NCBI GenBank assembly: GCA_005883075.1
Contig: VBAX01000067.1
Span: forward strand, 1,596-37,073
DNA from: Candidatus Bathyarchaeota archaeon
Lineage (GTDB): Archaea > Thermoproteota > Bathyarchaeia > 40CM-2-53-6
Direction: 5' to 3'
DNA: 35,478 nt
Part shown: piece by piece, positions 1,538 through 33,420 of the stretch
How the letters are laid out: each line of letters starts with the position of its first letter
How positions within the stretch are numbered: the stretch's first letter is position 1
Notes under the pieces: model-generated
What the model was told of the DNA's origin: nothing
Databases searched by the model: none
What the model saw: the letters and a program-made list of their open reading frames with translations, nothing else
Translations under genes and position numbers: made by a program

Positions 1538-2617
1538 TCAGAGTATCTCCTTCCAAACTTCCCTTGCCACTTGTCTTGCAGCTTCTTCTGTGCGGACATT
1601 CCCGATCAGTAGTCTTCCTGTTTTGAAGACTGACACTCTGTGAACCTGTTTCGTGTAAACGAAAACGGATTCCGAGGTCGCGACCACTGATTCTTTGGGG
1701 ATCTTGGTGTTGAGAGATTGGAGATCTAGCGCAATGTCGTGTTCAGGCAACACGTTAGCTACATTGTCACCGCACAACATGATCGCGCTATCGTGATGAA
1801 TTGTTTTTGAAGGAGAGCGGCTGCATACGGGGCAGTCCTTTCGTCTCGCAATCTTGGTAAATAGAAAATCGGGTCCAGCTAGGTCCACTGTCAGCAATTG
1901 TCCAAGAATTGCTGTTGGCAATGCGAGAAGTCTCTTCATGGCCTCTGATGCTGCGAGAGTTCCGATTAGTCCTACTATTGTAGCGGTGACCCCTACGGTC
2001 TCGCAAGAGTCCAGAGACTCCGATTCGGCGTATGGTATCATGCATTCAAGACACGGGGTACTAGGTGGATTGAACAGGGAAATATGACCCTGATTCGCAA
2101 TCGCGCTCGTGAAGAGGTATGGAACGTGATTCTCTGTGGCAAACCTGTTTAGAGCATATCTTGCCCGGAGATTATCGGTTCCATCAAGAATTAGGTCCGC
2201 GTTAATTAGAAGCTCGGTAACGTTCTCTGTTCGAAGAGTTTCGATTACCGCTTTCGTTCTCGTCCACGGTTGGCGTGATCTCAGTCTTCTTGAGAGAGCT
2301 TCCGCTTTCGGCAAGTGAAGATCTTCGTTATCTACTCCGATGAGCCTGTGCAGGTTGCTCTCCTCAACAACATCTTGATCGATAAGTTTCAGAAATCCGA
2401 TCCCTTGGCTCGCGAGAAAGTAGGCAGCAGCACTTCCAACACCCCCTGTCCCGACAACTGCGACTTTTGCCGATTGCAACTTCTCCAAACCGGCCTGCCC
2501 AATTTCGGGTACGGCGGTTTCCCTCGCAAAGTAACTCAACATTTGTGCGTTCATGGCTGGCCGAATGGTCGGTTCGTCGCTTGAATTAGCTTCCCATGTC
2601 CCTGGAAGCATAGTCAT
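1538..2617 (-). CDS. HesA/MoeB/ThiF family E1-like adenylyltransferase
   Basis: VAVVGTGGVGSAAAYFLASQGIG nucleotide-binding motif, DLILDGTDNLRARYALN, and zinc-ligand pairs CLEC and CPVC. Start may be the internal MNAQML. Confidence 0.88.
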   Translation of the reverse strand: MTMLPGTWEANSSDEPTIRPAMNAQMLSYFARETAVPEIGQAGLEKLQSAKVAVVGTGGVGSAAAYFLASQGIGFLKLIDQDVVEESNLHRLIGVDNEDLHLPKAEALSRRLRSRQPWTRTKAVIETLRTENVTELLINADLILDGTDNLRARYALNRFATENHVPYLFTSAIANQGHISLFNPPSTPCLECMIPYAESESLDSCETVGVTATIVGLIGTLAASEAMKRLLALPTAILGQLLTVDLAGPDFLFTKIARRKDCPVCSRSPSKTIHHDSAIMLCGDNVANVLPEHDIALDLQSLNTKIPKESVVATSESVFVYTKQVHRVSVFKTGRLLIGNVRTEEAARQVAREVWKEIL

Positions 2618-2663: not shown

Positions 2664-2882
2664 AAAAAAACGCCCATTATCAGCCCTGATCTCGAATCTG
2701 GAAGCCGTCCCCTTAATTGCATAGCAAACCGTTCTTGACGACTCGTTAAAACAGCATGTGATCCGAGCGTGGATTGTGCCCTGAATCGCCTGTCTCGCCC
2801 ATAATCATTGCCAGACAGAAGATTTTCTCTGGAGAAAGGGGGGGGTCTTGCACAGCGCACTTCGCAACGCAAGAGTGGTCAA
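2664..2882 (-). repeat. Dispersed ~215-nt element, copy A (putative ncRNA/mobile element)
   Basis: Reverse complement (GTGCGCTGTGCAAGACCCCCCC...GTCGTCAAGAACGGTTTGCTATGCAATTAAG...CAGATTCGAGATCAGGGCTGATAATGGGCG-TTTTTTT) matches 17893-18107 closely along its length. Confidence 0.75.
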
Positions 2883-3062: not shown

Positions 3063-4412
3063 TTGAGTAACCACCTTCGTGTCGCTCACAAGACCAGCGT
3101 TCTACTGCTCGCGGTCTTCATTCTGCTGATAATACAGTCTTCACTTTCCCCGCCTGCCAGGGCGAGTTCGAGTTACTACGTGGCTGCGATGAACGCGAAC
3201 ATAGACCCTGGGGCCGAAGACTTTGTCGTCTCCTCAATCAACGACGCCACAAGCCAGGAGATTCACAATTTCATCCTGGTATTGGACACATTCGGCGGTA
3301 ACGGCCAGAACATGGACAACATTATCATCGCGATCTCCAAGTATCGAGGAGCCGGCAACAACTTCACAACACTAATCGCGCCATTCGGCGCACACGCCTT
3401 CAGCGCCGGAGCATACATCGCCGAAGCATCCACAAACATCACCATCGTCCCAGGCACCACCATCGGCTCGGCAACCCCCATCGTCTACGGGATTCCCACC
3501 GGCGAAGAGAACACGACCCTGACAAAAGACATCAACGGCTTCTCCTCATTCATGATCTCCATCACGCCAAACTACCGGAACAGCAACGCAACAGCCCTCA
3601 TGGTTACCAAGGGACGCTCGTACTCATGTCAGTCGATCAACAGTTGCGAGGCCCTGAACAACCACGTAGTTGACAAGGTGATCAACGTCTCATCGACAAA
3701 CGACGCCCTTCTGGCCATATGCGGCTCACAGTGTGGAGACATTCACAATCCAGGAATAAGGTCTGCATTCCTATCCATTCTAAGCGACCCCAACCTGGAT
3801 GGTATCCTGTTTCTCCTCGGCACCTTCGCCATCCTCGCCGACGTGTACCATCCCACCGTCATAATATCGGTCGTAGGCGCAGCGGCAATCGCCCTCGCGC
3901 TCGTCGGTCTTGGAGTCTTCGGAGCCTCCATCGTCTCCATAATCCTGATGCTGATCGGCGCACTCTTCATCTTCTTCGAACTCAAGACACATCACGGAAT
4001 CAGCGCCACAATCGGCGTTGTAATCTTCATCGTAGGCTTCATCCTCGTATTCAGTCTCCCAGCACCCGCCCCGGGCCCAGGTCAACCGACCGGAAACCTC
4101 CCAAACCCTGTTATCGGGATATTAACCTACATCATCCTCGGACTAGTCGGCGGAGGCGTCGTCTTCGGAAGCGTCTACCTTTACAAAGTTCGAGAAACGA
4201 TCATGCAGCGGCCCTTGAGCATCAATCCCAAGGCTATAATAGGAAAGGAAGGCTACCTCACATCCGATGTGAAAGCAGGCGAATACGGCACGGCAACAAT
4301 AAGCTCTGAAGACTATACCGTATCCTCTTCGGAAAACCTGCAGAAAGGGACCAAGGTCCGAGTCAAAGACGTCCAGGGACTAAAGCTATCAGTTGAGAAA
4401 ATGGAGCAGTAA
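3063..4412 (+). CDS. NfeD-like membrane-bound serine protease (ClpP-class)
   Basis: Signal peptide, ClpP-like segment (FSAGAYIAEASTNITIVPGTTIGSATPI), multi-TM region, C-terminal OB-fold-like domain; directly followed by an SPFH gene. Confidence 0.87.
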   Translation: MSNHLRVAHKTSVLLLAVFILLIIQSSLSPPARASSSYYVAAMNANIDPGAEDFVVSSINDATSQEIHNFILVLDTFGGNGQNMDNIIIAISKYRGAGNNFTTLIAPFGAHAFSAGAYIAEASTNITIVPGTTIGSATPIVYGIPTGEENTTLTKDINGFSSFMISITPNYRNSNATALMVTKGRSYSCQSINSCEALNNHVVDKVINVSSTNDALLAICGSQCGDIHNPGIRSAFLSILSDPNLDGILFLLGTFAILADVYHPTVIISVVGAAAIALALVGLGVFGASIVSIILMLIGALFIFFELKTHHGISATIGVVIFIVGFILVFSLPAPAPGPGQPTGNLPNPVIGILTYIILGLVGGGVVFGSVYLYKVRETIMQRPLSINPKAIIGKEGYLTSDVKAGEYGTATISSEDYTVSSSENLQKGTKVRVKDVQGLKLSVEKMEQ

Positions 4413-17509: not shown

Positions 17510-17848
17510 TTGGATCTTAACCGGATTGTCGCCCAGTCGTTGCGGGTCGGGGTTCTTGTCAGCGCTGTCCTGAGTCTTCTTGGTCTTTCTTTGTGGGCCT
17601 TTGGCGGTTTTGGTAGCGTGAGTGTTCCAGCTGTGTTGAGTGTCGGAGTCATAATTGGACTCGCGTTTACCGGAGACCTGACGGGAATAGTGTATCTAGG
17701 AGTGATAGTATTGATCGCTACGCCAATTTTCCGGGTCGCGATCTCGTCGATATACTTCGCCGCTGAGAGGGATCGCGCGTACGCTGGGATCACGATTCTA
17801 GTCCTCGGAATGCTCTTGCTCGCCTTGTATTCCGGAGCAGCGGGCTAA
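17510..17848 (+). CDS. DUF1634-like small membrane protein
   Basis: Three TM segments; 112 aa directly downstream of the TauE/SafE gene, the usual context of this family. Confidence 0.7.
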   Translation: MDLNRIVAQSLRVGVLVSAVLSLLGLSLWAFGGFGSVSVPAVLSVGVIIGLAFTGDLTGIVYLGVIVLIATPIFRVAISSIYFAAERDRAYAGITILVLGMLLLALYSGAAG

Positions 17849-17892: not shown

Positions 17893-18107
17893 TCGACCGC
17901 TTCTGCGTCGCGAGGTATGCTGTGCAAGACCCCCCCTTTTGGGGGAGGTCTCTGGTTGTTTCGCGCGGATTCTGGGCGAGTCTCATGATTCAGGCCCCAA
18001 TTCAGGCTTGGATACATTATCAATTTTACGGGTCGTCAAGAAGGATTTGCTATGCAATTAAGCGACAGGGCGCCAGATTCGAGATCAGGGCTGATAATAG
18101 CCGATTT
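17893..18107 (+). repeat. Dispersed ~215-nt element, copy B
   Basis: TGCTGTGCAAGACCCCCCC...GTCGTCAAGAAGGATTTGCTATGCAATTAAG...CAGATTCGAGATCAGGGCTGATAATAGCCG matches copy A in the opposite orientation. Confidence 0.75.
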
Positions 18108-18320
18108 CACAATCTTCTCTTCCCGGATTCACCATTCTCGCACGCAAGGATTGTGGAAAAGTTATAGGAATTTCTTGTCGAGATGCTCTTCCTGTCTTGG
18201 TGGGATTACGGGCTCGTTTTTTCGAGACGGGTGCGTTATCGGCTTGTCTAGTCTTTTTCGGTCCCTGTGGATTCCCCTAGGGATAAGCGTGGAATAGTAT
18301 GGTCTGGAAATCGCGGGCTT

Positions 18321-18353
18321 AGATTCGGGATCGGGGCTGATAATGGGCGATTT
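18321..18353 (+). repeat. Partial third copy (3' end) of the dispersed element
   Basis: AGATTCGGGATCGGGGCTGATAATGGGCGATTT versus AGATTCGAGATCAGGGCTGATAATAGCCGATTT in copy B. Confidence 0.6.
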
Positions 18354-18622
18354 ACCGCTGGGGATTTCGGGCCATGAAGGAAACCGGATCAGGCAGGGAC
18401 CGGTGAACGTGGAATTCTCGAGGGTTCACGAAGGGCGGGGGGGCGGGAAAAACAGGCCCCCGGGGGATCATGATTTAGTTAGCAGAAAAAATAGTTAGCG
18501 GAAAGCGGTTTGATGGCGAGGTCAAGTGGTATCGGTCCTGTGGTCCTTCCTGCTGGCTTGCGTCGTCACTTGGCGCTGTTTGTGCTCGGATGCTGGAAAA
18601 GGGGTTGGGAACCGGGGGGCTG

Positions 18623-21600
18623 CTAGGCGAATATTTCCTGGTCGCCTTGTTTACGCCTGAGATATCCCTTCTTCCAGGCAAACGCGACGAGCCCTATTGC
18701 GCCGATCGCCCCGGTAGCCGAGACCAAAGTTTGACTCTTCGAGGATAACCAAGATGGTTTTACCTCAAAAGTGTGCAAGGCGGTGCCGAGCGCGGAGTTG
18801 GGACCTTGTGCGGTTGCCAAGAGCGCGTAGGTGCCTATCGGACCAGTTGTCGGAACGGCGTAGACGGCCATGAACAGGCCTCCGGAGACTCCCTTAACAG
18901 TGAGTGAAACGTTCGATCCGTCAGGCTTGATCAGTGTCAAATGAATCTGGATGCTCGGAGCCTGAATAGCCAGTCCGTTTTGGAAGATTAGAACATACAC
19001 TGTTGCGGTGTCTCCGGGGAAGTATATCGTGCCAGTGTCAATCGAGACAGTTAGCGGCGTGGGCTCGGCGAGGACCTGGAACGGAGCTGTCGCGTTAACT
19101 CCGGTGACCAAGCCTAGGGCTTTGATGAGGTGTGGTCCTGGTTGTGCGTGCGGCACGTTGAATGTGAAGACGAAAGAGCTGTTTGATGCGAATGCCTCTC
19201 CGAGGAATTGGTCGTCGAAGGTTACCCAGAACGCCTGGTTCTGCGGGTAATATCCGGGTTGGAACAAGATGAAACCAGACCCGTTGATTTGGACCTTGGT
19301 TCCCACAGGTCCGCTAGGCGGTGTCACCCTCAAAACTGGCGGTGGAAAAACGACCAATGTTGAAGTGGTCAAGTGGATAAGTGAACCGCTTCTGCCCGTC
19401 ACGGTAAGAGTGTAATTCCTAGGAGGCGTATTTGGTCCGGTAAGGATGATCACGGATGTATAGCTGCCTCCGTAAATTGTGAGGATGGTGTCACGAAGAG
19501 AGACCCGAGGACCGTTAGGAACTAGTGGCGAGATCGAGACGCTGAGTGTTACGTTGAACGGCGGTAACGGCCCAGTACAGCAAGGAGATCGTTCTACATT
19601 AACACCCAGAAGTCCGGTAAATCCCGCGAGTACCTGGATTGTCGGTGGATATGTTTGGATTGTGAAGTCTGGGGGGCCGACCACGGTTACACTCACGATG
19701 TCCAAACCAGACAGGAATCCATTGGACCCTACAACGAAAACAAGGTAGGTGCCGGGTGGCGTTGTGGAGTACGGTTTTATGAGCATCGTTGAAAAGAAGT
19801 ACTTTCCAGGAAATATTGCCACGTTGGTCGGGGCAAATGATATGTTGAATGCCGAATTTGGCGCAGGCGCAGGTGAGCCTGTGTTTTGAGGTGACGATAA
19901 AGTGACTGTTGTGTTTAGATTCGAGGTGATTAGAGCAACCAGAACTGTTGTGCTTGAACCCGAAGTTATTGTGATCTGATGCGGTGATACGCTCAGGGCA
20001 AAGTTAGGTGCCAAGACTCTTACGGTTGCGGTTACATTATGAGATAGGATTCCTGCCGTTCCTATTATGATGACCCCATAATCACCTGGAAGAATGGTAG
20101 ATGATGCTGTTATGCTCATTGAAGAAAATGCGGACGTTGCTGGCCCTAAGGTCAGAATTGAGGGATTGAACGACAACGTCAAGCCTTGCGGCGAAATCGC
20201 GGAAAGAGAGACAGCGCCGGTCAGGCCGAAGCTAGTAGCCTGTATCCCGTCGGAATAGGTGAAGTTCTGTCCAGGGTTTATTGACACGAAACCTGGACCG
20301 GATAATGTGAAGTCATTGGGTGGTTTCGACGGAATGACTGTCAGGAGGATTGTCTTTGACCATTTGAGTCCGTTGCTGTCGGTGATCCTGAGAGTTACAG
20401 AGTATTTTCCGGCGAATTGATAGAGGTATGCTGTCGTGCTATTAGCACCTGAATCTCGGACCGGCAGGGGACTAAATGTGTCGCCGAACGTCCAAAAGTA
20501 ATCCGTGATTACGGCACCTGGCGATGGAAGGCTAGCGTTGCCATGAAGTGTTATGACTTGATTGGCGGTCGGATTTAGTGGCGACCAGGTGAAATCGGCC
20601 TTGGGCGGCGTGCACGGGGAGCCATTGCAACTAAGGCTGGTGTAATATCCATCATGAACTGTGGCAGGAATCGACGACCCCGCAAGTGCCAAGGAGTACT
20701 GTTTGATCTGAATCTGGCTGAAATTCGGGGCAGTCGTGTTAACGCTGAGAGTTAGAAAGAAAATGTTTCCCTGGGTACTGTTGGCTGTCGCCCCTCCTAG
20801 AATCGTCTGGGCGAATGACACCACACCAGGCCCGTCATCGGGCCCGCAGAGGCCATTTTGTCCAGCAATGGCTGAGATACCGTCCAGACAGTCCCGGACC
20901 AGGGCGGTCGGATAGATTGTTTGGGAAAGTACGTTTGTCGAATAGTTTAGGTTTGACGCATGCAATACGTGGTAGTCATATTCGATCGTGACTGCGACTC
21001 CATTGATTGAGGGAGATCCTGTCAAATTAACCGCGATGGTTATTGTCTTTGACGCGCGGGCCAGATCGATGGTAGCATAAGGGTCAACGGCTACGACCGT
21101 TCCCTGACCAACAGGGACGACAATAACACTGACCGAAGCAGAATGGGAATGGCCACCGCCACTGCCCGTTATGGTTACGGTGTAGGTTCCGATCGACCCG
21201 GCGCACGAGAGGATGCTTGTTCCTGAAATCGTGAAGTTCAGCGAGATTATGGTTGAACTGAGGCTACATGACAATCCTGAAACTGGTGTCACTGCGAATG
21301 AGAGAGCGACTGGTCCAGCAAAACCGTTTAAGGAAATCACAGTAATGGTGGAGGTCATGCCATAGCCAGGGGCGGCGGATAGTGTTGACGGGTTTGCGCT
21401 TATCTGGAAATCGGAGGCAGATCCAACCCCCACGGTGAGCATGGCTGCATGGGCTCTTGTGAAGCCGTTGAGGGTGGTGTTGCTGTTAATCATCAGCGTG
21501 AACGTCCCCGAGGGCGTGCTTGCCGTCGTGGTCACTGTGAGAATGGACGTTCCGGTGCCTCCAGAAATTGTATAGGTACTAAGTGATGCGCCAATCCCGG

Positions 21601-22681
21601 CAGAACTGGCAGTTGCAGGAATTGCTACGCCGAGCCTCACCAAGCCGCTGAAGCCGGCCTTCGGCGCGACGATGACAGCAACAGGTTTGACGCCGGGGGC
21701 AAGTATCGAGATCGTGGTTTGGTTCAATCCTAGACTATAGTCGGTGATAGCGAGCTGTAGGGAGAAGGCTGCGGACAGAGAGCTCGTGGTAAAAGTGACC
21801 ATGTCCTGAGTCTGGTATGTGGCTGTAACGGTTGCAATGTACACTCCAGCTGGCACGTTGGTAGGCACGGTCCCGGTCTGTGTGAATGTCTGTTGAGACA
21901 CGCCGGTTAGGTCGATAAAGGGAGCTGACAACGATACTGTCGGACGAATACCTGTTCCGTTGATGGTTGCGGCCAAGTTTAGTTGTGCAGTGCTCGTCGT
22001 GTTGAACCCGTTTTGAGACATTGCCGAGAATGTTGTTGTGGGGAGTGAGTGGGTTGGTGCGCCGGCGAGTGATGATCCCAGACTGGCTGCAGTCGTTGAA
22101 AGGGTGGCATACGCGAGGACAGTCGTGTCACTGTTGTCGAATCCTCCTGTCTGAGTAGACTCAGGAACCGGAGTGACTGTACCGTTTGATAAGGCTACAC
22201 AGAGGTTCCCGTTGCTTGAGCTTCTCGGGTCGCAGCCGTTCTGGTAACCTATCGTGACTCCGCCGGGCGCAGTGGTACCAATGATGCTAAAGATCGCAGT
22301 GAATAACAAGCCTGTTGCCCCAGGAGGAGAGAGAAAACCAAAAGGACCTACAACCGCGAGGTGCACGGTAGAGGGGTTGTCTGCGGACGGGCAACTTGCT
22401 CCAGTGATCAAGACGCCCCCAATACACTCTGTCAGTCTGATTGAGCCGGTGGGCATTATGCTCCCAGTCAGATCTGCCCCGTAAGGCTTCACCTTAGAAA
22501 CATCGCTCGAGTTGAGAGCAATATCGAACCCTATCAATCGAGCAGTATTATTGATCATACTCGGGATCCTTACCAAACTATTCGGTGTAGTCAGCGGCCC
22601 GCTGAAGGGTAACTTGCGCGATGCAGACAGTTCCCGTGATCGCCCCTTCCGCCCGAAATGGGAGTGCTTGAAGCATTGCAA
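18623..22681 (-). CDS. Giant cell-surface protein with cohesin-like, PKD and Ig-like segments and a C-terminal TM anchor; 5' end frameshifted
   Basis: PKD-like ADFTWSPLNPTANQVITLHGNAS...YFWTFGD...YQFAGKYSVTLRITDSNG; cohesin-like VDPYATIDLARASKTITIAVNLTG; C-terminal TM plus KKGYLRRKQ. Confidence 0.85.
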   Translation of the reverse strand: MQCFKHSHFGRKGRSRELSASRKLPFSGPLTTPNSLVRIPSMINNTARLIGFDIALNSSDVSKVKPYGADLTGSIMPTGSIRLTECIGGVLITGASCPSADNPSTVHLAVVGPFGFLSPPGATGLLFTAIFSIIGTTAPGGVTIGYQNGCDPRSSSNGNLCVALSNGTVTPVPESTQTGGFDNSDTTVLAYATLSTTAASLGSSLAGAPTHSLPTTTFSAMSQNGFNTTSTAQLNLAATINGTGIRPTVSLSAPFIDLTGVSQQTFTQTGTVPTNVPAGVYIATVTATYQTQDMVTFTTSSLSAAFSLQLAITDYSLGLNQTTISILAPGVKPVAVIVAPKAGFSGLVRLGVAIPATASSAGIGASLSTYTISGGTGTSILTVTTTASTPSGTFTLMINSNTTLNGFTRAHAAMLTVGVGSASDFQISANPSTLSAAPGYGMTSTITVISLNGFAGPVALSFAVTPVSGLSCSLSSTIISLNFTISGTSILSCAGSIGTYTVTITGSGGGHSHSASVSVIVVPVGQGTVVAVDPYATIDLARASKTITIAVNLTGSPSINGVAVTIEYDYHVLHASNLNYSTNVLSQTIYPTALVRDCLDGISAIAGQNGLCGPDDGPGVVSFAQTILGGATANSTQGNIFFLTLSVNTTAPNFSQIQIKQYSLALAGSSIPATVHDGYYTSLSCNGSPCTPPKADFTWSPLNPTANQVITLHGNASLPSPGAVITDYFWTFGDTFSPLPVRDSGANSTTAYLYQFAGKYSVTLRITDSNGLKWSKTILLTVIPSKPPNDFTLSGPGFVSINPGQNFTYSDGIQATSFGLTGAVSLSAISPQGLTLSFNPSILTLGPATSAFSSMSITASSTILPGDYGVIIIGTAGILSHNVTATVRVLAPNFALSVSPHQITITSGSSTTVLVALITSNLNTTVTLSSPQNTGSPAPAPNSAFNISFAPTNVAIFPGKYFFSTMLIKPYSTTPPGTYLVFVVGSNGFLSGLDIVSVTVVGPPDFTIQTYPPTIQVLAGFTGLLGVNVERSPCCTGPLPPFNVTLSVSISPLVPNGPRVSLRDTILTIYGGSYTSVIILTGPNTPPRNYTLTVTGRSGSLIHLTTSTLVVFPPPVLRVTPPSGPVGTKVQINGSGFILFQPGYYPQNQAFWVTFDDQFLGEAFASNSSFVFTFNVPHAQPGPHLIKALGLVTGVNATAPFQVLAEPTPLTVSIDTGTIYFPGDTATVYVLIFQNGLAIQAPSIQIHLTLIKPDGSNVSLTVKGVSGGLFMAVYAVPTTGPIGTYALLATAQGPNSALGTALHTFEVKPSWLSSKSQTLVSATGAIGAIGLVAFAWKKGYLRRKQGDQEIFA

Positions 22682-22739
22682 GGACGGCTAAAGTAGCGAT
22701 AATCGAGCCCAGTATCCTTCGTTTATGAAAAGCCCTCAA
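22578..22739 (-). other. Signal-peptide-encoding 5' part of the giant surface protein, in a different frame
   Basis: TTG start: MRAFHKRRILGSIIATLAVLAMLQALPFRAEGAITGTVCIAQVTLQRAADYTE*; offset by one nt from the 18623-22681 frame. Confidence 0.65.
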
Positions 22740-22973
22740 ACCAACTGATTCCAAGTTAGTCTTCTTTCGGTCAAGAGTTAAGCTTTCCGCCTGCCGTCCT
22801 AATCTTTCTCGCTATATCACGAGCATCCTCTGGAAATAGAGAGCCATGACGGTACGCGGGTGGAATCTGCCGCAAAACTTCTGATAGCTTGCCGATGGCG
22901 GCGCGAGAGTTGGGAAGAGGACTCGTTCACTCAGCCGGTCCATCGCCCCTTTGGCGCAGCCTCTGAAGCTGTC

Positions 22974-23273
22974 TCAGTTTCTTCGCTTCCTGGGCTTGCG
23001 GGGAGTTTGGAAACGATCAGATGTGTAGTTCGGGTAAACTACGCCCATCAACGGGAGTCTCTCCGTTGACAAGGGAGGAAAGGGCGGGATTCCCTTGATC
23101 TTGTCATTCTCTGCGGGTTCTTCAGGGGTCGAATCGTCATACGGAACGACCTTGAGGGTCCAAGAATCGCTGAGAACCCTGTAGCCGTCGAGACCTTCAT
23201 GATCAAGGAACTTGTGAAGAAGCAACTTGACATCTCGACCCTTCTCATCCTCGACCTCAATCCTTGTTGCCAT
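22974..23273 (-). CDS. Hypothetical small protein
   Basis: MATRIEVEDEKGRDVKLLLHKFLDHEGLDGYRVLSDSWTLKVVPYDD has protein-like composition; overlaps other short ORFs. Confidence 0.4.
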   Translation of the reverse strand: MATRIEVEDEKGRDVKLLLHKFLDHEGLDGYRVLSDSWTLKVVPYDDSTPEEPAENDKIKGIPPFPPLSTERLPLMGVVYPNYTSDRFQTPRKPRKRRN

Positions 23274-23489
23274 CTACCTTGATCCGCGCCTGGAATCTTC
23301 GACTGAAGGAACTTGGTTGTAGCTCCCGCTTCCCCGGGTAGCATCTTCAACTCTACAATTACCATATAACTACCTAGACAATTCAGGGTCTATCGTCGCA
23401 TTTTAGCCTGTTCAAGATAGGAAAAGGAGGACGGTACTCATAGAACAGCGAAAAGAAGGAATAAATTGTCGCGGCCTAGTCTGGCCTAG

Positions 23490-25310: not shown

Positions 25311-25408
25311 CTCCTCTGCTCGCTGACAATCATTCGAAGGGACAAGCGAGCGCCCAATTTCACCGGGTTCTGAGATGGGAGTCTTCTCTGGATTCTCCCA
25401 AGTAACGA

Positions 25409-26884
25409 CTACACAGTAGTTAGTGGCCAAGTAGGTCGTTTCTGACGGTCAGAGATTTCCTGCGGAGAAGAGACTGTCTCAGCCCACTCTACGACAAAGT
25501 CAACCAGCTGGTGGCGGAGCTCTTCGCCCTTAGACTGAGACCGTCTAAGGGTCCTAATATTATCGGCGAGTTGAATCGAACCCAACACATCCTTCGTCCA
25601 TTTCTCAAAATCCCTCCGTCCAATATGGTACTCCAGAGATTCTAATGGCACGATTTTGAGGGCTTCCAGGAATTCTCCAATTGAGGAGGCGAGTATTCCC
25701 GAATATAGTCCAAGACCAGTGTCAAAGTAGAATGACTTGTCCCTTGGAACCGCCATGATCCCATCTACGGTAGCGTCCGCTTCAACCCTGGTATTAGGCC
25801 ACAATCGACTCCCAGGCAGAATCTTTGCTCGGTCTCCGAGCGTGCAACCCTGCCCGATTATGGCACTATCAATGGTTACGTTGTCGCCCACAATCGCTCG
25901 CTCACCAATTATCGTTGATTTCACTGAACAATTACTTCCGATTTCCGTATGACGAAACGTAACCGTTTGATCCAAGAATGTCCCTGAGCGTATCTGGGAA
26001 TCTTCCTCCAAGACCGTTCCAGGCTGGATCTTAACATCATCTTCAATCTTGGCATCATTGTCGAACCATGACGGACCAGAAATCTGAACACGTTGACCCA
26101 TCCTGATGTTTCCCCTCACGAAAACCCGCGGTTTAGAATTGCCGAGTGCCCTTGAGTCGGTAGGAGGATCCTGATCTAGCTTGCCTAGGACCCAGCCAGC
26201 TCCTCTCAAATAGCCCTTGAGTTCTCCCACGTCCACCCAAAACGACTTGGAAGCGAACCCGAAGAGATGTTCACCTACTCGCATTAGGTAGGGGAATAGG
26301 TCCCGAGCAAAGTCCCACTTTTCATCCTCTATGTAATCGACGACATCGGGTTCGAGAATGTAGAAGCCAGTGCTCGCGAGGTTACTAAGCGCTGTGCCTG
26401 GTACCGGTTTTTCTAGAAACTTGACAATTTCCTCCCTCTTCCCCAGAACCGCGATTCCATAAAGGGACGGGTCTTCCACTTCAGTAAGAGCGATGGAAAC
26501 TTCTCCTCCCCTGTCCAAATGAAAGTGAACCATTTCGGTCAGGGAGATTTCGCTGATTGTGTCAGATTGGACGACCAGAAATGTTTCGTCCAGAAGATGA
26601 GCGGCCAGTTTCAGGCTTCCAGCGGTTCCGAATGCAACTCCTTCCGGTTCGACAACGTATGTGATTCTGACCCCGAACCGGGAGCCGTCTCCTAGATAGC
26701 CCATCAGTTGATCTTTGAGATAGCCAACGATGATGATAACGTCGTGAAATCCGTTCGAGGACAGATGGGAGAGTACGTAGTGGATTATTGGGTTGGGACC
26801 GAGTGGAAGCATTGGCTTAGGCCGGGTAAAGGTAAGAGGTCTTAGACGGGTTCCTTCGCCCCCGGCTAGAACAACAGCCTTCAA
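25409..26884 (-). CDS. Sugar-phosphate nucleotidyltransferase with left-handed beta-helix repeats and a C-terminal DUF5752-like domain
   Basis: MKAVVLAGGEGTRLRPLTFTRPKPMLPLG; hexapeptide repeats; C-terminal FYFDTGLG...EYHIGRRDFEKWTKDVLG...GEELRHQLVDFV. Confidence 0.9.
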   Translation of the reverse strand: MKAVVLAGGEGTRLRPLTFTRPKPMLPLGPNPIIHYVLSHLSSNGFHDVIIIVGYLKDQLMGYLGDGSRFGVRITYVVEPEGVAFGTAGSLKLAAHLLDETFLVVQSDTISEISLTEMVHFHLDRGGEVSIALTEVEDPSLYGIAVLGKREEIVKFLEKPVPGTALSNLASTGFYILEPDVVDYIEDEKWDFARDLFPYLMRVGEHLFGFASKSFWVDVGELKGYLRGAGWVLGKLDQDPPTDSRALGNSKPRVFVRGNIRMGQRVQISGPSWFDNDAKIEDDVKIQPGTVLEEDSQIRSGTFLDQTVTFRHTEIGSNCSVKSTIIGERAIVGDNVTIDSAIIGQGCTLGDRAKILPGSRLWPNTRVEADATVDGIMAVPRDKSFYFDTGLGLYSGILASSIGEFLEALKIVPLESLEYHIGRRDFEKWTKDVLGSIQLADNIRTLRRSQSKGEELRHQLVDFVVEWAETVSSPQEISDRQKRPTWPLTTV

Positions 26885-27308
26885 GGTTCACGCGAGTTCT
26901 AGGTCAACGATACCCGCATCCGGCCCCCACAAGAGACTGAAGCCAGTCACGTATAAAGTGCCTAGAAGGTGAAAAGAGGGAAGCTCTGACCGCAAATCTT
27001 CCGCTCCTAGTGCCAGCCTTGATATTACAATTCCAACAAGTCGTGACCCTGGGTTATTTGGAGAGTAGCCACCATGACAACGTAATCTCGACCAAAGAGA
27101 AGAGCGCTAAGCCCATGAGATAAGTGAAACCCGTGCTTGGGGATCGAAACCTAGTAGCGGCGACGCCGACCGAAGACCCATCATCGTTGGTATTGCAGGA
27201 GGAGTGCTAAAGAATGCTGATTGCCGGTGTTCCCTCGCTAGCAATGGTTGCGATACCTAACCCCTTTAAGTTTCCCAGACTGGACCCTCGTGAAGAAAGG
27301 CACTGCAG

Positions 27309-29150
27309 ATGCTCTCGACAAGCCAGCAAGCCCCGATGGGCAATCGTTCCACCCTAATTACCATTGGGAAGAACGGAGAACTCAGGCACCTATTCTGGCC
27401 TACACAAAACTATCCTCAGCATGTTCGGGGATCTCTACCGGGAATCATATGCGGGAAGGGTCAGAACGAATCCTTCAGCTGGTTGACAGACGACCCTTGG
27501 ACAAGAAGACAGAGATATCTTCCCGATAGCACTATTCTTGAAACAACTTTCACTGACAATCGTAATGGTTTCGAAGTAAGGGCTACGGATTTCGTCTTGC
27601 CCAGCAAGGATGCCCTTGTCAGAGTTTTCGAGATATCCAACAAGAACGTGGCTCCCATTGACACAAGTTTCCTCTACTACAACGACTTCAACATAGCCGA
27701 AACCCCTGTCGGTGATGCCTGCTACTACGACCAGAGATCTGACACTATCATCTCCTACAAGCGAAACTATTGGTTCACCTTTGGAGGTCAGAGACGATCT
27801 TCCGCCCATCAATGCGGGGTCCACGAAGAGGCATCAGATGCCTTCGTTGACGCAAAAGATGGCAAACTGTCCGGAAACCCTCTCGCCCTATATTCAGGGA
27901 CGAGAGGAGTGAATTCCTGTCTCAAGTGGGACCTTGGAAGTCTGAATCCAGGTGTCAAAGAACAACTTGTTCTCTTGATGTGCTTCGCACACAACAAGCA
28001 AGACGCCTTGTCTCTAATCGATACTGCAAGGAAGAGCTCGCTTCCGGAGATGGTTAATGACGTCAACAAATACTGTCAAGACTGGCTTAGAAATGCCAAA
28101 GTTGCTAGAGTTCCAGAAGCCTGGGAGGATCTGCTCAGAAGGTCCCTTCTAACTCTGAGAACACTTGTATCTCCAGACTTCGGAGGAATCGTCGCCGCCC
28201 CGACGCTAGAGCCAGATTACAGATACGTCTGGTCCCGAGACGGGACATATGTCGCATACGCGCTAGACCGCTGCGGCTACCACAAAGATGCAGAAGCCTT
28301 CTATCGTTGGTGCAAAGAAGCTCAGGAGCCGAACGGTGGATGGAATCAAAGATACAATATTGAAAAGACTCCCGCGCCATCCTGGGGAGAGCAGGAAGAC
28401 CAGTGCGCCACGATCCTATGGGGCTTCGGACAGCACTACGAACTGACTAAGAATCGAGACTTTCTGGAAGACGTTTGGCCCACCATAGAGAAAGGCGTTG
28501 AACATCTCTTGCTCGGAAGAGACCCGGAAACCGGTCTTGTCGGGCCATCGCTGGACCTCTGGGAAGAGAAGAGCGCACTACATACCTACACGAACTCGGC
28601 GGCATACGGGGCGCTGAGAGAGAGCGCTAAGATAGCGTCAGTCCTCGGACGTGACGCGCTAGCAGAATCCTGGAAGAAAGAGAATGGCATTCTGCAAAGT
28701 GCCATTGTCAAGCATCTCTGGAATGAACAGAATAATCGTTTCCTGAAATCAGTCAAGCCCGTGGACAATGACATTGACACCGCGATCATAGGACTATCCT
28801 TCCCATTTTGCGTATTACAGCCTGATGACCCTAGAATGCTGAGCACGGCTCATCAGATCGAAAACGCCTACCGCTACACCGCCGAAGGGATCGGAAGATA
28901 TCCGAGCGACGTTTACCAGGGAGGCAACCCTTGGTTCATTACGACACTCTGGATGGCGTTGTACCATTGCCAGCTCGGCAACTACCAGAAGGCCAAGACC
29001 CTCATCGACTGGTCAGCAAGGCACGTTGACGAGCTCCAGCTTTTCGCAGAACAAGTAAACAGAGAGAACGGAGAGCCCGTTTCAGCCTCGCCCTTGGCAT
29101 GGTCGCACGCTATGTTCATACTTAGCCTTCTAAACTTCAAGGAAGCATAG
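27309..29150 (+). CDS. GH15-family glucoamylase / glucan glucosidase
   Basis: PDYRYVWSRDGTYVAYALDRCGY, NGGWNQRYN, GPSLDLWEEKSALHTYTN, and C-terminal GNPWFITTLWMALYHCQLGNY. Confidence 0.9.
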   Translation: MLSTSQQAPMGNRSTLITIGKNGELRHLFWPTQNYPQHVRGSLPGIICGKGQNESFSWLTDDPWTRRQRYLPDSTILETTFTDNRNGFEVRATDFVLPSKDALVRVFEISNKNVAPIDTSFLYYNDFNIAETPVGDACYYDQRSDTIISYKRNYWFTFGGQRRSSAHQCGVHEEASDAFVDAKDGKLSGNPLALYSGTRGVNSCLKWDLGSLNPGVKEQLVLLMCFAHNKQDALSLIDTARKSSLPEMVNDVNKYCQDWLRNAKVARVPEAWEDLLRRSLLTLRTLVSPDFGGIVAAPTLEPDYRYVWSRDGTYVAYALDRCGYHKDAEAFYRWCKEAQEPNGGWNQRYNIEKTPAPSWGEQEDQCATILWGFGQHYELTKNRDFLEDVWPTIEKGVEHLLLGRDPETGLVGPSLDLWEEKSALHTYTNSAAYGALRESAKIASVLGRDALAESWKKENGILQSAIVKHLWNEQNNRFLKSVKPVDNDIDTAIIGLSFPFCVLQPDDPRMLSTAHQIENAYRYTAEGIGRYPSDVYQGGNPWFITTLWMALYHCQLGNYQKAKTLIDWSARHVDELQLFAEQVNRENGEPVSASPLAWSHAMFILSLLNFKEA

Positions 29151-29178
29151 CTACATGATCTTGCTGTAGCATGTGGGC

Positions 29179-29529
29179 CTAAGTTGTTCTCTTCTGGATC
29201 CTATTGATTCTCGTCTTAACCACGTCCACAAGACGCATGCGCAACTGTTCTCCAGAAAGCTTCTTCTCATTCAAACCGGTGATTTGTCGAGCAAGCGAAT
29301 CCTCCCCCAGCATCCTCAGCCAGTTCTCGAAATCTCCACGGCCAGTATGGAACTGGATGGAGGCAATATCAATGCTGCTCAACACTCCAACAAAGTCGGA
29401 CAAGTTTCGAGCCGCCGCTCCGGTCGGGGCTCCTATCGACCTGTAGAAATAGAACGCATTCTGCGGCGGAACATCTCGAAGTACACTCGCAGTTTCCTTC
29501 AAAGTCTTGGCTACAGGCATCAACTTCAC
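29179..29529 (-). CDS. Standalone DUF5752-like domain protein
   Basis: FYFYRSIG...GAAARNLSDFVGVL...FHTGRGDFENWLRMLGEDSLARQI...GEQLRMRLVDVV aligns with the C-terminus of the 25409-26884 product. Confidence 0.75.
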   Translation of the reverse strand: MKLMPVAKTLKETASVLRDVPPQNAFYFYRSIGAPTGAAARNLSDFVGVLSSIDIASIQFHTGRGDFENWLRMLGEDSLARQITGLNEKKLSGEQLRMRLVDVVKTRINRIQKRTT

Positions 29530-29612
29530 TTCCGAGTTGTCAGATACAAAATGGTTTCGCTTTAGGCTTTCTCTCTTAATTATCCCTTAGAGGCGGCTAT
29601 TGACCGTCTGGG

Positions 29613-31439
29613 ATGCTGACGAGGAGAGTGACTTCTCAACAACCCTCACTGAGCCGGGGGGCACATTCAGTAAAAAGAGTTTGGATGCTTAGTTATGAGT
29701 GCGCAGGACTCGCACAGGCTGGCGGTTTAGGAGAGGCTGTCGCGGGACTTGCCAGAACCCTCGCACAAGACTCCAAGATAGAAGTCACGGTTTTCCTCCC
29801 GAGTCATGGGAGGCACCTGGACCAGGACTTGAGAACAGCGTACAACCTGAAGGACGAAACGACTTTCATCGCGAACGGGTACAGAACGGGGACAGACCAC
29901 CTCCATTATCGTTACTTAGCCGGGATTGAACGGGGCCACAGAGATTCAGTCCGCTACGCGCTCGTAAAGGGCTTGGATGGACGGACAAGCAAATGGCTCA
30001 ATCACCGAACTCTCTACGATAGCAATGTCGTGTTTGAAAAAATGAGCTTGTTCGCGAGAACAGTGAAGACATACTCAGACTACCTGCTCGCCACAGGGTC
30101 GCTTAGCAACCTTCCCGATTTGATTCACGCCCACGACTGGCATATGATCCCAGCAGGAGTTGCCTTGAAGCAGTCTCTTGAGGAAAATCGTGTGCGAGTT
30201 CCACTAGTATTCACTATCCATCTGCTTGGGCGTGTTTCCCTGCCTTGGCATTACGGATCGGACGCATGGTGTGGAATCCAGGATCTTCAGCATGATGTAA
30301 GGATTGGAAGGAAAGGGGTCTTCACACTTGGATACCGTCAGGTCTGGGAAGCGTACTGTCACGACTCCCTAGAAAGGTTTGGATGTTACGAGGCGAATTA
30401 TGTCACTTCCGTGAGCAGCTCTTACCTGACCCATGATGTTTCCGATTACGTCGGGAACGCGATCAAAGGGAAGAGTGGACACGTCTACAATGGATGCGAT
30501 TGGGATAACGAAGAGATCAATTCAATGGTTCGAGTCGATCAAACTGGCGAGAAACCCATCGGTCTGAATGATCAGTACCTAAATCGCTGGGACCTCAGGA
30601 GACAACTTCTCACTCAAGGCCTGGCTGAAGCGAGACCGACAGTGGAGGGTCAAAATAATCTCGATGGATCTCAAGAACGACGAGATCAGAGCAAGCGGCT
30701 GATTGAGCCCTTTGAAGAGGACGGATCTCTCGTTCTTATGACAGGGAGATTGAGCCCACAGAAAGGCGTCGATATCCTCCTTGACGCGGTCCCACGTATT
30801 CTCAAAGTACTCCCAAGCACCAAGTTCCTATTCTTCCTACTGCCATCAAATGATCCGGACTCAAACAAGTCAACCAGTATGGTTGCTGCAGGTTACCCGA
30901 GGAATGTTAGACTTATCATGGGCAGGGACCGTCCGCTCTATCTCCTTTCCCATGTTGCAGCGGACGTTTACGCAATGCCCTCCAGGGTGGAGCCATTCGG
31001 GATCAGCGCCCTCGAAGCAATGATCACCGGGAACCCCGTCGTTGGGGCCGACGTCGGCGGCCTTAGAGAAACAGTTCTTGACATCCAAAAATACGGCGAT
31101 ACGGGAACAGGAATCTTGACTCCCGCCGAAGACGCGAGGTCTCTCTCCTCTGCCCTGATTTCTATGATAATAACGATGAAGATCGACGAGTCATCACAGC
31201 GTGGAGAAGTAGACATGAGCGATTCGGTGGAAGAGATTCCTTCCAAACCTATCAGGGAAATGGTCGGCAAGAACCCGCGGTTCGGATCGATGATCAGGGA
31301 GAACTGCAGGAGCAGAGTTGAAGAGAAGTTCAGATGGAAGAACGCGGGTCTCCTCGCACTCGCCCGGTACGCAAAGGCGAAACAATTATCCACGAAACCA
31401 ACGGTCTATTCCAAAGGCGGAAAGTCATCGAGAAACTGA
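29613..31439 (+). CDS. glgA: Glycogen synthase (GT5-like)
   Basis: VWMLSYECAGLAQAGGLGEAVAGLA, HAHDWHMIPAGVAL, MTGRLSPQKGVDILLDA, PSRVEPFGISALEAM. Confidence 0.9.
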   Translation: MLTRRVTSQQPSLSRGAHSVKRVWMLSYECAGLAQAGGLGEAVAGLARTLAQDSKIEVTVFLPSHGRHLDQDLRTAYNLKDETTFIANGYRTGTDHLHYRYLAGIERGHRDSVRYALVKGLDGRTSKWLNHRTLYDSNVVFEKMSLFARTVKTYSDYLLATGSLSNLPDLIHAHDWHMIPAGVALKQSLEENRVRVPLVFTIHLLGRVSLPWHYGSDAWCGIQDLQHDVRIGRKGVFTLGYRQVWEAYCHDSLERFGCYEANYVTSVSSSYLTHDVSDYVGNAIKGKSGHVYNGCDWDNEEINSMVRVDQTGEKPIGLNDQYLNRWDLRRQLLTQGLAEARPTVEGQNNLDGSQERRDQSKRLIEPFEEDGSLVLMTGRLSPQKGVDILLDAVPRILKVLPSTKFLFFLLPSNDPDSNKSTSMVAAGYPRNVRLIMGRDRPLYLLSHVAADVYAMPSRVEPFGISALEAMITGNPVVGADVGGLRETVLDIQKYGDTGTGILTPAEDARSLSSALISMIITMKIDESSQRGEVDMSDSVEEIPSKPIREMVGKNPRFGSMIRENCRSRVEEKFRWKNAGLLALARYAKAKQLSTKPTVYSKGGKSSRN

Positions 31440-31458
31440 ATTATTATCCAAACTACGC

Positions 31459-33420
31459 TCAAACCTCGTTCTTGAAAAACAGGGCTCCCAGAGGCGGTAG
31501 ATTAATCCGAATTGAATGTTCTTTGCCGTGAAATGCGTGAGCGTCGGTACTTACTCCGCCAAGATTACCCTGGCCGCTACCACCATATTCGACGGCATCA
31601 CTGTTCAGGATTTCCTTCCAGTATTCACTTCCGCTAACCCCCAGTCGATAGTTCTTTCGGGGCAGCGGGGTGAAATTCAGCACAACTAGGACTTGATTTT
31701 CCTGGGTCTTTTCTTTCCGGACGAAGCTGATTATGCTCTTTTCCCAGTCTTTGGTGTCCACCCATTCGAAGCCACTTCTCTCGAAGTCCATCTGGTGAAG
31801 CGCCTCTTCAGTTCGGTAGGTCTTGTTGAGGTCTTTCACCCATTGGTGAAGCCTCCTATGCGGTTCCTGTTCTAGTAAATGCCAGTCGAGGCTCTCCTCG
31901 AAGTTCCATTCGTTCCGCTGCCCGAAATCTCCACCCATAAAGAGGAGTTTCTTCCCAGGATGACCGTACATGTAGCCGTAGAGGAGTCTGAGGTTAGCGA
32001 ACTTCTGCCAGGTATCACCTGGCATCTTGTCGAGCAGAGAACGCTTCCCGTAGACGACTTCATCATGGGATAATGGGAGGATGAAGTTTTCCGAGAACGC
32101 GTACCAGAGACTGAAGGTGAGCTGGTCATGATGGTGCTTTCTGTAAACGGGGTCCTTGGCGAAGTATTCCAGCGAGTCATGCATCCAGCCCATGCTCCAC
32201 TTCATACCGAAACCGAGCCCTCCCACGTAAGTTGGGTGTGATACCATAGGCCACGCGGTTGATTCTTCCGCGATCATTTGGACGTCAGGCTGAGCGCGGT
32301 ATACTGCCTGGTTGAGCTCCTTGATGAAGGATAGTGCTTCCAGATTCTCCCTGCCCCCATACATGTTAGGCGTCCACTCACCCTTCTTCCGGGAGTAGTC
32401 CAAGTAGAGCATTGAGGCTACTCCATCGACTCTGAGTCCATCGGCGTGGTATTTGTTTAGCCAGAAGACCGCACTGCTCGCCAGGAAAGATCGGACTTCA
32501 TTCTTTCCAAAATCAAAGATGAAACTCTTCCAATCTGGATGATTTCTCTTCTGAGGGTCAGAATACTCGAAAAGGTGTGAGCCATCATAGCAAGCAAGTC
32601 CGTATGCGTCTGATGGAAAGTGAGAGGGGACCCAGTCCAGGATTACTCCGAATCCTTTTTTGTGAAGCTCATCGACGAGGTGCAAGAAGTCTTCGGGTAT
32701 GCCGAACCGGCTCGTGGGCGCGAAATAGCCCAGAGTTTGGTACCCCCAAGACCGACTGTAGGGATGCTCCATCACGGGCATAAATTCCACATGAGTGTAC
32801 TGCATCTCTTCTAGGTAGCCCGGCAGGTCCCTCGCCAACTCTCGATAGGTTAGCCATCGCTGGTTGTCTTCTGGGACCCGCTTCCAGGATCCGAGATGGA
32901 TCTCGTAAATGGCAAAGGGCGAGTCTAGAGAATTGTTCTTCGATCGGTCTTTCATCCATTCTTTGTCATCCCAAGAATGTTTGAGCTCCCAGACGACTGA
33001 TGCTGTTCGAGGTGGGATTTCCCAGAGTAGGGCGAACGGGTCCCCTTTTTCCATGGAATATCCGGCATGGATTCTGGACTCGATATTGTACTTGTAAAGA
33101 GCGCCTTTAGCGAGTCCTGGTATGAACCCTTCCCAGATCCCGGAGCCGTCGCTCCTAAGTTTCAGAGAGTGACTATTTTTCCGCCATTGATTGAAATCTC
33201 CAATCACGTGGACCTGTTTGGCATTAGGAGCCCACACCGCGAAATGTGTGCCTTCTTCCCCGTTGAGCTGGATGGGGTGGGAGCCTAGTTTCTCATAGAG
33301 TTGGATGTGTCTTCCTTCTTTGAAGAGATGAATGTCGTATGGCGTCAGTAGCTCGTGTTCGATAACCGTATCCATGGTTGGGAAAGCTCCTCGGCCCTTG
33401 GCTGGCAATGACGGACCCAT
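31459..33420 (-). CDS. glgB: 1,4-alpha-glucan branching enzyme (GH13)
   Basis: GTHFAVWAPNAKQVHVIGDFNQW, GYQTLGYFAPTSRFG, GLRVDGVASMLYLDYSRKKGEWTPN, ESTAWPMVS, LPLSHDEVVYGKRSL. Confidence 0.96.
   Translation of the reverse strand: MGPSLPAKGRGAFPTMDTVIEHELLTPYDIHLFKEGRHIQLYEKLGSHPIQLNGEEGTHFAVWAPNAKQVHVIGDFNQWRKNSHSLKLRSDGSGIWEGFIPGLAKGALYKYNIESRIHAGYSMEKGDPFALLWEIPPRTASVVWELKHSWDDKEWMKDRSKNNSLDSPFAIYEIHLGSWKRVPEDNQRWLTYRELARDLPGYLEEMQYTHVEFMPVMEHPYSRSWGYQTLGYFAPTSRFGIPEDFLHLVDELHKKGFGVILDWVPSHFPSDAYGLACYDGSHLFEYSDPQKRNHPDWKSFIFDFGKNEVRSFLASSAVFWLNKYHADGLRVDGVASMLYLDYSRKKGEWTPNMYGGRENLEALSFIKELNQAVYRAQPDVQMIAEESTAWPMVSHPTYVGGLGFGMKWSMGWMHDSLEYFAKDPVYRKHHHDQLTFSLWYAFSENFILPLSHDEVVYGKRSLLDKMPGDTWQKFANLRLLYGYMYGHPGKKLLFMGGDFGQRNEWNFEESLDWHLLEQEPHRRLHQWVKDLNKTYRTEEALHQMDFERSGFEWVDTKDWEKSIISFVRKEKTQENQVLVVLNFTPLPRKNYRLGVSGSEYWKEILNSDAVEYGGSGQGNLGGVSTDAHAFHGKEHSIRINLPPLGALFFKNEV

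Follow-up and report, generated by a model that had tools for sequence, protein, structure and literature searches.

What kind of sequence occurs twice, on opposite strands and between genes, in one stretch of a soil archaeon's chromosome? The question was raised by 35,478 nucleotides of a Candidatus Bathyarchaeota genome (the window), for which a preliminary description had reported that the minus strand of one intergenic region (copy A) matches a second region (copy B) over its full length. The description proposed a dispersed non-coding element, conserved either as an RNA or as a mobile element and ending in a T7 run that resembles an archaeal terminator. The full-length match was borne out by a repeat search of the window, by BLAST, and by nhmmer, and the conserved words that had been quoted are present in the sequence. 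The repeat search finds two pairs of inverted arms, 2667-2750/18024-18107 and 2835-2880/17895-17940 (83% identity each), and when copy A is compared with the whole of its genome by BLAST, the match to copy B has 73% identity (E=4e-29). Both copies are thus real, but a further unit had been missed. A 24-nt tail motif occurs three times in the window, compared with none in 100 shuffles, and its third occurrence (18321-18344) ends a unit of a different type, beta, directly after the alpha unit of copy B; the alpha profile detects only the tail of this unit (18314-18353). Copy A lies between two divergent genes, one of the ThiF family (1538-2617, minus strand) and one for NfeD (3063-4412, plus strand), and the first unit of copy B lies downstream of a DUF1634 gene (17510-17848). 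The features are collected in Table 1.

Table 1. Repeat units and their parts in the window.
Feature	Position	Strand	Evidence or remark
Copy A, single alpha unit	2667-2880	-	nhmmer 2-213 of 213, E=1e-57; BLAST in own genome
3'-terminal T7 of copy A (A7 on the plus strand)	2664-2670	-	T-run statistics over 106 copies; not a conserved terminator
TGATTATGGGCGA box inside copy A, recurring in the unit's tail	2795-2807	-	
Copy B, first unit, alpha type	17895-18107	+	nhmmer E=5e-45
Copy B, first unit: conserved 3' tail	18075-18107	+	
Short spacer between the head-to-tail units of copy B	18108-18131	+	Constant tandem spacing of ~21 nt at many loci
Copy B, second unit, beta type; shares the head and the GATCGGGGCTGATAATGGGCGATTT tail	about 18132-18355	+	Beta profile match, L014 from 1738 onwards, E=2e-63

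The repeat unit is ~213 nt long and strand-asymmetric. Its 3' end is sharp and usually reads GGGCGATTTC, its 5' end lies at about AACCACTCTTGCG with weak conservation upstream, and its head is CACTCTTGCGTCGCGAG; some first units are preceded by a weaker leader, TTTACTTTCGCA..GTCCGGAGG. Conserved blocks alternate along the unit with a variable middle, so that 77 of the 213 alignment columns exceed 1.3 bits, and the GGGC-containing box found within the unit recurs in its tail. Units are of alpha or beta type and stand singly or head to tail; at many loci the spacer of such pairs hardly varies in length. The beta type, found in the window and in many relatives, has the head and tail of alpha and its own middle, ATTCCCCTAGGGATAAGCGTGGAATA. 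Beta also adjoins an alpha-type unit in another genus (at L240, L248, and L251), and the pair seen in copy B is therefore probably the ancestral arrangement. The beta middle (ATTCCCCTAGGGAT..GGAATA; for example, window 18132-18355 and L248 475-699) is recognisable across genera and the alpha middle is not. Head-to-tail dimers with left and right monomer types and a short spacer are familiar from Alu-type repeats, but the likeness is an analogy only, as the present element is archaeal, occupies vertically inherited positions, and lacks features of retroposition.

The preliminary description had suggested a BLASTN comparison with the genome and its relatives, and this does reveal further copies: with copy A as query, 54 matching pieces were found in its own genome. 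A sequence-only profile built on 95 copies detects 65 matches (E<=0.01) in this 1.9-Mb genome and 11-71 matches in each of seven other genomes searched, one of another genus included; copy counts from the larger searches are to be read as "at least". By plain BLAST, the element is present in 11 of 18 genomes of the genus (its own included) and in none of 23 outside it. The apparent absence from seven genomes of the genus was rejected, because the profile recovers diverged copies in these BLAST-negative genomes, as it does in another genus. With a cross-genus profile, 20 of the family's 21 genomes prove to carry the element, and the order's other families gave no match in 17 genomes; all genomes are metagenome-assembled (MAGs), many are incomplete, and family and genus labels are those assigned by the search tool. 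An exact pattern scan of genome contigs returned 39 stretches, all from soil MAGs titled Candidatus Bathyarchaeota archaeon or Crenarchaeota archaeon 13_1_40CM. As far as tested, then, the repeat family is ancient and confined to one family of soil Bathyarchaeota. We found no description of such repeats for Bathyarchaeota in the open-access papers searched.

The genomic positions of the units are conserved to a degree that would be rare if placement were random. Of the ten relatives with a ThiF match, nine carry the element between ThiF and NfeD, and the contig of the tenth (G001) stops short of this site. The locus contains one or two units, whose strand is minus in the window's own genome (G000), G017, and G005 and plus in seven other genomes. 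At many other G000 loci the orthologs also contain the element, although most of the relatives' loci were fetched for holding it and absence is thus under-sampled. At several loci the same gene interval and orientation are kept even between deep clades (L188 with L144/L169, L173 with L019/L038, and L181 with L011). The element is absent from G015 at locus B; there (L111, G015:C45 near 6800) similarity is lost immediately downstream of the DUF1634 gene, and the sequence, judged by eye, appears to pass into tRNA-like sequence and then other DNA. The units are not evenly spaced along the chromosome (CV 0.78 vs 0.84 simulated).

What fills these positions is less constant. At several loci, orthologous units are 60-75% identical while their flanks are 85-95% identical, and at several the best match is a paralog from the same genome (for L004, 0.93 compared with 0.71 for the ortholog). 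Units L001-L006 are 88-93% identical to one another within G000. Element positions are vertically inherited, and the occupant, the number of units, and sometimes the orientation change; the copies of one genome are homogenised, and sequence is exchanged from position to position. Separately, a unit pair at G017:C22:7388-7914, 312 nt apart, matches a diverged clade (with the spacing of G016/G008/G010) within a genome of the other clade, which reflects either an exchange or a binning error.

Fixed addresses with changing occupants are what ectopic conversion between copies would produce, and we infer that the copies serve as substrates of homologous recombination. Indeed, a 14.7-kb segment (G000:C108 3586-18246) is inverted in G001, and both G001 breakpoints carry alpha units in inverted orientation, with a near-identical core and differing ends. 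In the light of established recombination biology, this pattern is best taken as the trace of homologous recombination between dispersed copies. Locus B was also considered as a rearrangement breakpoint and rejected; a ~5-kb insertion adjoins the element there.

What, then, are the copies for? In the reading to which we give an even chance, the element is an ancient interspersed family whose copies are recombination substrates and also double-stranded DNA sites for a chromosomal protein. The conserved blocks, with their repeated GGGC-containing boxes (TCAGGGC-TGATAAT-GGGCGATTT), would be the putative binding sites, and the protein may be architectural or broadly regulatory. Binding to duplex DNA is suggested by three properties: linear blocks conserved without RNA structure, repetition of the boxes, and the lack of a fixed orientation to genes. 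Among 85 gene contexts, which rest on crude longest-ORF gene calls, 29 are convergent, 22 divergent, and 22 and 12 co-directional, and this variety argues against a riboswitch, promoter, or terminator. Under selection for protein binding, the blocks would be preserved and the middle left to drift. Orthologous units do differ by 4.7% at conserved columns and by 25% at variable ones, but a similar contrast (ratio 5.7 vs the 5-fold observed) would be expected if units were replaced by random paralogs, so that the column contrast does not separate purifying selection from conversion. Conserved blocks persist at fixed places between clades whose genes share ~70% identity, and also between genera, which means that the copies either have a function or are copied anew again and again. 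A more specific proposal, which we regard as unlikely, is that of a family-specific genome-organising element, in which some 50-80 dispersed double-stranded DNA sites per chromosome would be bound by a putative archaeal protein, stay in place for the lifetime of the family, and be homogenised by ectopic recombination.

A selfish origin is somewhat unlikely. The units would then be a non-autonomous, MITE-like repeat in the broad sense, old and mostly immobile, propagated by a putative transposase or by homing into existing copies. They are indeed short, intergenic, and numerous, the L001-L006 group resembles a subfamily burst, and copies swap between sites, with orientation varying at the ThiF locus. 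However, the "mobile element" of the preliminary description was not borne out, and several observations speak against it. Terminal inverted repeats were not found (best 12-mer end identity 5.5 vs 5.8 for shuffled ends), nor were target duplications, as flank repeats of k=5-9 were not above those of shuffled pairs in 103 copies, and the positions are conserved between species and clades. Neighbouring genes belong to housekeeping families, with no transposase, among the 25 of 89 families listed. There were no viral, phage, or plasmid matches, and a source of this kind was rejected. An association with Y1 or TnpB proteins was likewise rejected: the Y1 transposase (PF01797) is found in none of the 21 family genomes, in a search with a positive control, and TnpB was not found in seven element-bearing genomes, G000, G001, G002, G006, G007, G008, and G011. 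The omega RNA loci associated with IscB and TnpB also occur as dispersed copies of ~200 nt without an adjoining protein, but the present units show no RNA structure, and TnpB is absent from several genomes with full element sets, that of the window included.

Known prokaryotic repeat families offer close comparisons. MITEs of the ERIC, Correia, and Chunjie types (PMC10969869) resemble the present element in length (100-400 bp), in having tens to hundreds of copies that are mostly intergenic, and in lacking an open reading frame. In contrast to these, the Bathyarchaeota element has no terminal inverted repeats, direct repeats, or hairpin fold, comes as two tandem unit types, and persists across genera with some positions conserved. 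REP sequences and REPINs (PMC12306157, PMC3116915) are similarly extragenic, abundant, and conserved in a lineage, but the element is not palindromic, is several times longer, and resides in genomes without a Y1 (RAYT-type) transposase.

We consider it improbable that the units are a family of ~200-nt non-coding RNA genes, perhaps unstructured and protein-bound. The strand asymmetry, the sharp 3' end, and the weak leader before some first units would suit such genes, but the remaining evidence is against them. Single copies fold no better than shuffles on either strand (mean z -0.50 and +0.18), and RNAalifold consensus structures in five alignments of 213-274 columns lie between 0 and -4.8 kcal/mol (-0.07 for 95 alpha copies; -4.8 at best for three other groups and the beta alignment). 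Mutual information reveals no helix, and a structured RNA was rejected on these grounds. The Rfam scan that had been suggested matched no family, even at E 0.5. The region upstream of the units shows no clear promoter-like AT peak, only a weak rise (0.58 vs background 0.50). The supposed terminator proved to be a peculiarity of one copy: a T run of six or more near the 3' end is found in only 5 of 106 copies, and T7 is nearly private to copy A. A coding sequence was rejected because no frame stays open along the whole unit in most copies (at most 21 of 155 for any frame), and a 5'-leader or riboswitch was rejected because orientation to genes is not fixed. The original view of the element as dispersed, non-coding, and distinct from known Rfam families, tRNAs, and IS ends holds as far as tested. 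Finally, a transcription-terminating or insulating role between genes is very improbable: convergent pairs are the commonest context, but units also lie between divergent and co-directional genes, and there is no conserved stem-loop or T run.

Long, non-palindromic, modular interspersed repeats that different clades retain at the same intergenic addresses seem unusual among prokaryotes. As a test system, they bring concerted evolution and repeat-driven inversions within reach in archaea that are uncultured. Because several copies lie near contig ends, the repeats may also interrupt the assembly of MAGs.

Three further observations concern the surroundings of the units. A second dispersed motif of ~58 nt (CACGAAGGGCGGGGCGCGGGAAAATCGACCACCCCCGGGGGTCGAGAAAAGCATGCTT) often lies downstream of units, with 21 matches in the loci examined, among them window 18427-18466, L296 3506-3563, and sites in L007, L009, L063, L143, and others; on the G000 side, one copy lies at the inversion breakpoint. 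Window 18360-23430, which separates the element from guaA, comprises ~5 kb with the gene for a 1352-aa PKD-domain protein; this stretch is present in G000 and not in G001 or G017. Lastly, window 25345-32143 is 92% identical to G012:C9 over 6.8 kb, compared with 73-85% elsewhere in the region, which perhaps reflects a recent exchange between species.
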